NCBI RefSeq assembly: GCF_900114545.1
Contig: NZ_FOTI01000018.1
Location: 1 to 56,143, forward strand
Source of the DNA: Halanaerobium salsuginis
GTDB taxonomy: Bacteria; Bacillota; Halanaerobiia; Halanaerobiales; Halanaerobiaceae
DNA length: 56,143 bases
Direction of reading: 5' to 3'
A model generated the notes under the pieces. The model was not told where the DNA came from and did no database searches. It worked only from the letters and a program-made list of their open reading frames with translations. The translations under genes were made by a program, and so were the position numbers. Positions 52,864 through 56,143 of this stretch are shown here, in pieces (the first letter of the stretch is position 1; each line of letters starts with the position of its first letter).

Positions 52864-54759
52864 TTGTCAATTTCAAAAAACAGACTGAGATTAACTAGAT
52901 TAGCTAATTTAGTTTTTTTAGCTTTTCTGATTAAATATAATTATTTAATGTTGGAAATTTTTTATGCCCCATCGATTCCAGCTCTACTTTTAAGAAATTT
53001 ATTGTTTATTGTAATTTATCTTAAATTTATTGAACCTCTGCTTATTTACAGAAAGATAAGACAGAGGTTATTCTTTCTTTTAGCAGTGTTTACTTTATTT
53101 TTTCTGAGTAATTACTGGTATAATAGTTATTTTGGTAATTTTATTGGGATTAATGATATTTTTTCAGGTGAAGGAACCAGTCAATTTTCTATGTTTAAGG
53201 TGCTTTTGCTGCAGATTATTAGATTCAGAGATGTGTTTTTTATTTTTGATTTAGTCTGTCTGGCAGCTTTTGGTTTTCTTGATTTAACTCAGAAAAGCTT
53301 TGCACCTATTTCTGATTTTATTTCTTTACAAAATAAACTTAATCTATCTAATCTGAAAGTTTATTTGCTTTTAGTATTTTTGCTTTTAACTCAGTTTACA
53401 GTGGGAGCAGTTCAGTTACGATCAGCTAGTCCAGTTAACTTATATAAATCAGGTACCCCATACCTAGCTTCAGTTTATGGAATTTCATCAGTTTATACTA
53501 TTGAAGCTTATAGCTATTTTCATCGTGAAGCAGATAAACCTGCTCCTGAATTAAATGATATACCATATTATAGCAGTCAACAGCAGCTTAGTGGCAAAAA
53601 AACTTTGCCAGCTAAAACTAATGTAATTTTAATTCAAATTGAATCTTTAGATGCAAAAATTATTGATTATAAGCAGCAAAATAAATTAGTAACTCCTTTT
53701 TTAAATAGTTTAAAAAAAGAGAGCATGTACTTTGATAATTTTTATGCTCAAAAAGTGAATGGTAGTTTTGATGCTGATCTGTCTGTGCTTACTTCCTTAT
53801 ATCCAGTAAATCGTAGTTATGTTTTTCGAGATTTAGACTTAAGTAAGTTTAAATCACTCCCTCTTCTGCTTAAAAAGCAGGGTTATCAAACACTTGCTTT
53901 TCATAATAATAATCGTGACTATTTTAATCGGGCTGCAGCCTATCCAGATCTTGGATTTGATCGCTTTTACAGTAAGCGTGATTTTAAAGAAGATATTTAC
54001 CCAATTCCTGAGGAAGAGGGGCTGGGAATTAATGATTATGACTATTTTAATCAAGCAGCTGAAACAATTAAACAGGCGGCTAAGCAGGAGAAGCCATTTC
54101 TGGCTTATTTAATTTCGTTAACCAGTCACACTCCTTTTGATTTTTATCCTGAAAGTGCTGCAGAAGATTTTCCTGAAGTTAATAATATGTTGGTCAAAAA
54201 TTATTTTAAATCAATTAACTTTACTGATCAAGCTTTAAAAAATTTTTTTGCTAAATTAAATCAGGCGGGGATACTGAATAATACATTAATTGTTATCTAT
54301 GCTGATCATGAATCAGAGATTAAAACACTGGAATATAATTCAAGCCGAGAATTTACTTTGTGGAAGAAGGTTAAAATACCATACCATATTCCATTATTTA
54401 TCAAGTATCCAGGATTAGAAGCTGGTATATCAGAACGGGAGGGTACTACAACAGATATTACTCCCACTATTCTTGATTTGCTCGGTTTTAAAGAATTACC
54501 TGAACAATTTGTGGGCAGTTCGCTTTTATTAGCTGATGATGAACCAATTTTATTTTTACATGAAACACCAGAGCTTTTATATAAAGATCAGCTATTTATT
54601 AAGGAACTTGCTAAGTTAACGAAAGTAGGCTTTGTTAAGGATCGGGAACAAGATGTTAATATTTCCGAGCATAAACTAGCTGAACTGCAGGAAATTATAG
54701 ATTATATGCGTGATATCTTTATGATTAACGAAGGAGAAATATTTAAGGAGGTGGAATAA
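52864..54759 (+). CDS. LTA synthase/MdoB-like phosphoglycerol transferase (alkaline phosphatase superfamily)
   Basis: 631-residue membrane enzyme with about five N-terminal membrane segments (to about residue 180) and an extracytoplasmic sulfatase-fold domain. Metal and catalytic motifs: IQIESLDAKI, then VNGSFDADLSVLTSLYP with Ser301 where LtaS has its catalytic Thr, SLTSHTPF, and YADHESE near residue 480. It should transfer glycerol phosphate from phosphatidylglycerol to a lipid or glycan, or hydrolyse it. TTG start supported by AGGAGGAATA. A TATAAT at 52821 is a weak promoter candidate. A glycerophosphodiesterase gene overlaps its stop codon by one base. Confidence 0.87.
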   Translation: MSISKNRLRLTRLANLVFLAFLIKYNYLMLEIFYAPSIPALLLRNLLFIVIYLKFIEPLLIYRKIRQRLFFLLAVFTLFFLSNYWYNSYFGNFIGINDIFSGEGTSQFSMFKVLLLQIIRFRDVFFIFDLVCLAAFGFLDLTQKSFAPISDFISLQNKLNLSNLKVYLLLVFLLLTQFTVGAVQLRSASPVNLYKSGTPYLASVYGISSVYTIEAYSYFHREADKPAPELNDIPYYSSQQQLSGKKTLPAKTNVILIQIESLDAKIIDYKQQNKLVTPFLNSLKKESMYFDNFYAQKVNGSFDADLSVLTSLYPVNRSYVFRDLDLSKFKSLPLLLKKQGYQTLAFHNNNRDYFNRAAAYPDLGFDRFYSKRDFKEDIYPIPEEEGLGINDYDYFNQAAETIKQAAKQEKPFLAYLISLTSHTPFDFYPESAAEDFPEVNNMLVKNYFKSINFTDQALKNFFAKLNQAGILNNTLIVIYADHESEIKTLEYNSSREFTLWKKVKIPYHIPLFIKYPGLEAGISEREGTTTDITPTILDLLGFKELPEQFVGSSLLLADDEPILFLHETPELLYKDQLFIKELAKLTKVGFVKDREQDVNISEHKLAELQEIIDYMRDIFMINEGEIFKEVE

Positions 54760-54761
54760 TT
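54745..54761 (+). promoter_or_regulatory. Ribosome site and apparent ATT start codon of the glycerophosphodiesterase
   Basis: AAGGAGG (54745-54751) is followed after seven bases by ATT (54759-54761), which shares one base with the preceding TAA. In that frame there is a stop at 54744 and no ATG, GTG or TTG until 54891, inside the catalytic domain. The spacing is ideal for initiation at ATT. Confidence 0.7.
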
Positions 54762-55742
54762 AAGCTTTTATTAATAGCTGTAATTCTTGTCTTAATTGTT
54801 GCTTTTATTTATTTTGAGCTTTATTATTTACTGAGGCCTTCTAAACTTGGTAAAAAAATAATTGCTGATTTTAAATTTGACTATCCAATTTTGGTTGCAC
54901 ACCGAGGTGCCTCTTATCAAGCGCCTGAATCAAGTAGAGCTGCTATTGAGCTAGCTATTGCAAGTGGGATTGATTATATAGAACTTGATGTGCAGAGAAC
55001 TGTTGATAATAAACTAATTATTTTTCATGATGACAATTTAAAACGCTTAACTAATGCAGAACAAGTCTTTCCAGAACGAAAAAACTATCAGCTGCATAAT
55101 TTTACTTTGGCTGAATTAAAAAAGCTTGATTATGGTTCCTGGTTTAACGAAAAATATCCTGAACGAGCTAGTAAAAATTATCGTAATTTAGAAATTATGA
55201 CTCTAGCAGAAGTAGTATCATTAATTAAAAATGCTCCGGCGAAAGTTGGTCTGGCTCTGGAACTCAAAAATCCTTATTTATATAAAAATATTGAAGCAGA
55301 GCTGGTTGAAGTATTAGAACAGAATCAATTGCAAGAAGAAAAAGATAAAAAAGCCCGAGTTATTTTTCTTTCTTTTTCACCACTTAGTCTGGAAAGGCTT
55401 TCTGAACTCAGACCACAATCACCGAGGTTATTGTTAACTAAAAGTAACTTTGCGAGTAGAAAACGCTGGCATGGTTGGCTTGATATCACCGCAGAAGTTG
55501 CCGATGGTATAGCACCTAAGGGACATGTTAGTTTTCCCTGGTATATTGGTGCTGCCCATAAAAGAGGTTTATTTGTACTGCCATATGTAATTAATCGTTC
55601 CTGGCAGTGGCAATTTCTTTCCTGGTTTAGTGCTGATGGTTATATTACCGATAGACCCGGCTTACTGAGTAAAATTTATCATAGAGCCCAGGAGTTAGAA
55701 GAAAAAGCTGCTGAATTAAAAGAAGATGTATTTCAGGATTAA
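54759..55742 (+). CDS. Membrane-anchored glycerophosphodiester phosphodiesterase (apparent ATT start)
   Basis: 327 residues if read from the ATT at 54759. Residues 2 to about 24 form one membrane segment (KLLLIAVILVLIVAFIYFEL). The GDPD TIM barrel follows: ILVAHRGASYQAPESS, DYIELDVQRT, IIFHDD and, later, LELKNP and ITDRPG motifs holding the catalytic histidines and metal-binding acids. A TTG at 54891 would delete the anchor, begin at the first barrel strand and lack a ribosome site, so ATT is preferred. It hydrolyses glycerophosphodiesters. Coupling to the LTA-synthase-like gene suggests recycling or trimming of phosphoglycerol polymers at the same membrane. No terminator is seen before the IS. 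Confidence 0.85.
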   Translation: MKLLLIAVILVLIVAFIYFELYYLLRPSKLGKKIIADFKFDYPILVAHRGASYQAPESSRAAIELAIASGIDYIELDVQRTVDNKLIIFHDDNLKRLTNAEQVFPERKNYQLHNFTLAELKKLDYGSWFNEKYPERASKNYRNLEIMTLAEVVSLIKNAPAKVGLALELKNPYLYKNIEAELVEVLEQNQLQEEKDKKARVIFLSFSPLSLERLSELRPQSPRLLLTKSNFASRKRWHGWLDITAEVADGIAPKGHVSFPWYIGAAHKRGLFVLPYVINRSWQWQFLSWFSADGYITDRPGLLSKIYHRAQELEEKAAELKEDVFQD

Positions 55743-55820: not shown

Positions 55821-56143
55821 GGTTCTTTGACAAATGTTGTGAAATCTAAATAGCACCGTTTGAATCATGTTATCTCTTTGTTTTTTTGAATTACTCTTAA
55901 ATACTTAGCAATGATAAAAATACTCGGCGTTTTAAGTTTTCAACTTTGGGAACACCGTAGCCAATTCTTTTGATTAATTTGATTTTGTTGTTTAATCCTT
56001 CAGCAAATCCGTTGGTTATTCTAGTTTTAAAATAGTTAATAATGTGTTGTTCCCAGCGTTTTACTGTTCCTTTAGCTCTATAGAAAAGATTTAATTTAGA
56101 CTGACTAACATTTTCATACCAGTTATTTAAAGCTTGAATAGAC
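55821..56143 (-). mobile_element. ISL3-family insertion sequence, right end (right copy, partial)
   Basis: The terminal inverted repeat GGTTCTTTGACAAATG starts at 55821. The 94 bases inside are identical, inverted, to the left window edge. The element continues past the window end and contains the transposase C-terminus on the - strand. The flanking octamer 55813-55820 is AATTTTAT. Confidence 0.88.
55897..56143 (-). CDS. ISL3 family transposase, C-terminal fragment (runs off window)
   Basis: The last 81 residues of a DDE transposase of the ISL3 (IS204/IS1001/IS1096/IS1165) family. The signature TNGFAEGLNNKIKLIKRIGYG contains the final catalytic Glu of the DDE triad (in AEGLNN), followed by a VENLKRRVFLS tail. 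It reads right to left and enters from beyond the window, so whether the gene is intact is unknown. The same final residues SLLSI end the left copy. Confidence 0.9.
   Translation of the reverse strand, partial: SIQALNNWYENVSQSKLNLFYRAKGTVKRWEQHIINYFKTRITNGFAEGLNNKIKLIKRIGYGVPKVENLKRRVFLSLLSI

Follow-up and report, generated by a model that had tools for sequence, protein, structure and literature searches.

Results

The window (the whole stretch of 56,143 nt that was analysed) carries a glycerophosphodiester phosphodiesterase (GDPD) gene that very likely starts at an ATT codon sharing one base with the stop codon of an upstream ltaS-like gene (Table 1). Sequence and comparison with relatives lead us, with high confidence, to propose that GDPD is made by formyl-methionine initiation at AUU 54759 through an extended Shine-Dalgarno sequence, probably with coupling to the upstream stop, and that the hydrolase would thereby be held low relative to the polymerase. 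A start at this ATT had been put forward in the first-pass annotation and is borne out by four lines of evidence: genus-wide conservation, positional homology with the ATG of orthologs, constraint on the extension and selection for the Shine-Dalgarno sequence.

Table 1. Features at the ltaS-like/GDPD junction, in window coordinates
Feature	Position	Strand	Basis
ltaS-like gene (sulfatase-fold phosphoglycerol transferase)	52864..54759	+	ORF from TTG 52864; PF00884 E=2e-47
Extended Shine-Dalgarno AAGGAGGTG	54745..54753	+	Sequence; AAGGAGG = 54745-54751
ltaS-like stop codon TAA	54757..54759	+	One base common to ATT (TAATT)
Probable start codon ATT (AUU)	54759..54761	+	7 nt from GGAGG; conservation; ATG in distant orthologs
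GDPD gene	54759..55742	+	327 codons + stop; PF03009 E=1e-40
Membrane anchor, linker helix, start of strand 1 (predicted)	54759..54890	+	AlphaFold2 helix 2-25, strand 44-48; pN/pS

Read directly, the GDPD frame is bounded by TAA 54744-54746 before it and by TAA 55740-55742 at its end. Its 5' end holds no usable ATG, GTG or TTG, the first of these in frame being TTG 54891, at residue 45. The protein matches the PF03009 profile with 140.8 bits (cut-off 23.6), the catalytic residues H48, R49, E75, D77 and H90 are invariant in 21 sequences, and the solved structures closest to its AlphaFold2 model (mean pLDDT 87) are a Bacillus GDPD and B. subtilis GlpQ. The model predicts a helix at residues 2-25, a short helix at 29-36 and a strand at 44-48, in agreement with the earlier description of the extension as a membrane anchor followed by the first strand. 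Since TTG 54891 is residue 45, within that strand, a start there would remove the anchor, the linker and part of strand 1. The catalytic domain and fold are common to this GDPD, B. subtilis GlpQ (PDB 5T91) and the PF03009 enzymes; in contrast to these, it has an N-terminal membrane anchor and follows an ltaS-like gene. The upstream gene scores 202.7 bits against the NCBIfam equivalog model for LtaS, below the cut-off of 970; we regard it as LtaS-like and withhold assignment as LtaS.

The final codons of the ltaS-like gene, AAG GAG GTG GAA TAA, hold the Shine-Dalgarno sequence of the downstream gene. Direct reading confirmed the coordinates given previously, namely the TAA at 54744, AAGGAGG 7 nt before ATT 54759 and the overlap with the stop codon. 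AAGGAGGTG is complementary over 9 nt to the usual 16S 3' tail, taken in its general form, and GGAGG stands at the proper spacing of 7 nt from the ATT. The stretch GGAGGTGG is invariant across 12/12 genus genomes, and the ltaS-like gene ends GAG GTG GAA/GAG in every one of them. As GAG makes up 20% of Glu codons in the genus and GTG 7.8% of Val codons, the retention of the rare GAG GTG is consistent with selection for the Shine-Dalgarno sequence; a conserved C-terminus of the upstream protein may account for part of this conservation. RNA structure at the start site was not favored, the folding energy being no better than that of shuffled sequences (z -0.5).

The GDPD gene is present in all 12 genus genomes compared. 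GGAGGTGGA occurs in each and is followed by ATT in 11 and by ATC in one (G002); because these genomes are related, the 12 cases are not independent of one another, and the sites of G003 and G010 hardly differ. The recurrence of GGAGGTGGA with ATT in other genomes of the genus indicates that the arrangement is not due to chance. Stop and start overlap as TAATT, TGATT or TAATC in 11/12 genomes (by 1 nt in the window) and are directly adjacent in G007, where a single inserted base brings both genes into one frame, with TAA immediately 5' of the ATT. Four genomes (G005, G003, G010 and G009) have no ATG, GTG or TTG between the preceding stop and the catalytic His, and in G000 the TTG at residue 45 is the only one. 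The first-pass annotation had proposed looking at the codon in relatives, and beyond the genus this comparison gave what is the strongest single argument for the ATT start, the positional homology with the ATG of distant orthologs. ATT is codon -47 relative to the catalytic His in 11 genus members, and ATG AAA/AAG occupies that very codon in five orthologs (G020, G026, G024, G021 and G027), which belong to two other families of the order. The remaining orthologs that start with ATG or GTG mostly begin a few codons or less from it, and G013, from another genus of the same family, has ATT there. It weighs against the ATT start that isoleucine in the genus is most commonly encoded by ATT (62%). 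The 47-codon extension shows a pN/pS of 0.25 versus 0.27 for the rest of the GDPD protein, and this equal constraint indicates translation of these codons together with the rest of GDPD.

Other readings of the locus were weighed against initiation at ATT 54759. Translation could start one codon earlier, at the likewise near-cognate ATA 54756, an in-frame codon that the first-pass annotation did not mention and that occurs in 10/12 genus genomes; at this codon G006 has GTG, which could serve as the start there. However, ATA lies only 4 nt from GGAGG, versus 7 nt for ATT, and G007 carries TAA in its place, which excludes an AUA start in that genome. Moreover, the ATA codon is set by the Glu and stop codons of the ltaS-like gene, which is not so for the TT of ATT, and the ATG of distant orthologs aligns to the ATT codon. 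A start at ATA is thus unlikely. Still less probable is a fused product of the two genes, with ribosomes passing from the ltaS-like frame into GDPD by frameshifting or by reading through the stop. Overlapping genes and a GDPD frame lacking a canonical start would fit such a fusion, and Shine-Dalgarno-like sequences are capable of stimulating frameshifting, but the relative frame is not conserved as it would be in programmed frameshifting (the same frame with TAA between in G007, where frameshifting is thereby excluded; a shift required in the others). In addition, no slippery heptamer was seen on inspection by eye, and more distant relatives have separate genes started by ATG.

Initiation within the gene, at TTG 54891, would yield a soluble enzyme without the anchor; it would use the first conventional start codon and leave the catalytic HR motif intact. 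Yet this TTG falls within strand 1, has no Shine-Dalgarno sequence, is missing in most relatives and is preceded by a stretch under protein-level constraint, all of which makes such a start very improbable. Least credible is a sequencing error hiding a true ATG, or a pseudogene. Observations in a single assembly can err, but the codon is ATT in 11/12 separate genus assemblies, of which two consist of a single contig, and the GDPD gene is intact and constrained; no result spoke for an error or a pseudogene. The ATA start, the fusion and the sequencing error were therefore rejected, on the TAA in G007, on the frame that is not kept and on the agreement of relatives, respectively. Since almost all relatives in the genus keep the arrangement and other genes there look alike, we take the ATT start to be real rather than erroneous, and probably to serve regulation.

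The statement of the first-pass annotation that ATT starts are very rare holds less well in this genus, where other genes bear the same signature. One of them is a DUF3084-like gene, with ATT AAC/AAT at its start in 11/12 genus genomes and ATC in G002; in sister genera the aligned start codon is GTG (G013) or ATG (G012). The infC gene, the classical case of a near-cognate start, has ATC behind CAGGAGGTGC (CAGGAGGTGCATAAAT ATC) in those members of the genus where parsing was possible. We surveyed stretches of four genus genomes (1.26 Mb, about 1,090 ORFs) for orphan Shine-Dalgarno sequences, recording codons that lie in frame at a spacing of 6-9 nt from a Shine-Dalgarno unused by any ATG, GTG or TTG. 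Isoleucine codons were found in 17/34 cases, versus a background of 10.8% (p = 1.5e-8), in 13/28 once repeated families were collapsed (p about 2e-6) and in 8/10 under a stricter setting; in stretches of five other genomes of the class the count was 6/26. In the 12 genus genomes, the pattern GGAGGTGN{5,6}ATTAA occurred 72 times versus 26 for the reversed control. From the surveyed stretches, we infer near-cognate starts in about 1% of genus genes. It is possible, though we hold this only tentatively, that some tens of genes start with AUU, AUC or AUA, each behind an extended Shine-Dalgarno sequence, limited by discrimination and perhaps co-regulated through IF3, with GDPD and the DUF3084-like gene as the genus-wide core.

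Candidates confined to one genome were also seen, with family names assigned by eye except where searched (loci L151-L161, L131-L150 and L162-L170): a 2-hydroxyacyl-CoA-dehydratase-like gene (ATA), a DppC-like permease (ATT), a sugar ABC permease (ATT), a subtilase-like protein (ATC) and argB (ATA). The DppC-like permease and an SLC13 transporter were rejected as conserved cases, the ATT being confined to one genome in each and thus sporadic; at the candidate ATT codon, an SLC13 ortholog of 89% identity carries GTG. A search of genome contigs for related loci yielded genomes of Bacillaceae and of other groups, but no hit that could be recognised as belonging to this order.

Discussion

The following sequence of events might underlie the synthesis of GDPD. 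Ribosomes ending the ltaS-like gene would halt at the UAA that overlaps AUU, and the 9-nt Shine-Dalgarno sequence within the 3' end of that gene would keep the 30S subunit positioned. The initiator tRNA would then pair with AUU despite the third-position mismatch, so that formyl-methionine is the expected first residue of GDPD. AUU is an inefficient start and one that IF3 discriminates against; the level of GDPD would therefore be low and tied to that of its partner polymerase. The likely benefit, in our hypothesis, is that a glycerophosphodiester hydrolase stays scarce beside a phosphoglycerol polymerase. Actual initiation at this codon, the coupling, the low yield, the sensitivity to IF3 and the benefit of the ratio are all elements that we infer from the sequence. 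The tight control and translational coupling suggested earlier are plausible, given precedent and the one-base overlap. In E. coli, an excess of IF3 decreases re-initiation and a Shine-Dalgarno sequence increases it (PMC2268962).

Several known systems resemble the GDPD gene in part. The infC gene starts with AUU in E. coli and with AUC in Streptomyces, and E. coli pcnB starts with AUU. GDPD shares with them an AUU or AUC start and, with infC, an in-operon position; however, infC encodes IF3 itself and so closes an autoregulatory loop, which GDPD cannot do, and a link to IF3 is hypothetical here. In Staphylococcus, cvfC1 (AUU) and ccpN (AUA) have conserved starts with extended Shine-Dalgarno sequences and yield about 10% of the AUG level, in poor medium (PMC13009471). 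The genus-wide conservation of a near-cognate start with an extended Shine-Dalgarno sequence is common to cvfC1, ccpN and GDPD, whereas the Staphylococcus genes are known from ribosome profiling and reporters, cvfC1 being first in its operon, and the GDPD AUU overlaps an upstream stop and is known from sequence. In Streptomyces, the GTC start of sigR is repressed by IF3, and the ratio of the operon partners matters (PMC5472188). Likewise, GDPD has a non-canonical start in a two-gene unit where it may set a ratio, although ratio control is only proposed for GDPD; sigR uses GTC, is first of its pair and has a demonstrated repression by IF3, in contrast to GDPD, which uses AUU and is the second gene.

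We found no reports of such starts in Halanaerobium in the open-access literature. Near-cognate starts as a kind are known; as far as that literature shows, the present case is new, and so are its conservation throughout the genus and what looks like a broader use there. To our knowledge, experimentally characterised AUU-type starts are few. Gene finders restricted to ATG, GTG and TTG would overlook the anchor of GDPD or cut the protein down to a soluble piece. The genus-wide GDPD and DUF3084-like cases offer a natural set for studying the purpose of near-cognate starts, whether low expression, operon ratio control or IF3 sensing. If the excess of isoleucine codons at starts were true genome-wide, start choice in this genus would look looser or more regulated than in the textbook picture.

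Some further observations concern the same kind of site. At the DUF3084-like membrane protein loci (L231-L244; G000:C32:56615 and orthologs), GGAGGTGGAGATT precedes the start in most, and G002 carries ATC for ATT in both conserved genes (L012 and L242), which suggests a correlated change. In five genomes, the sequence GGAGGTGGA(G/A)ACAATTAA recurs at a distance of about 35-38 kb from the DUF3084-like gene; its sites (G006:C9:7900, G001:C1:70351, G010:C1:136573, G004:C6:108762, G009:C20:122307 and others) possibly mark a third conserved ATT-started gene. A SorC-like regulator (L117, G007:C1 at about 756,124) has AAGGAGGTG and lacks a canonical start within range; a GTC lies 9 nt from GGAGG, the same codon as in Streptomyces sigR. 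Finally, the contig end holds an open-ended ORF on the minus strand (window 55897-56142) that resembles a transposase fragment.
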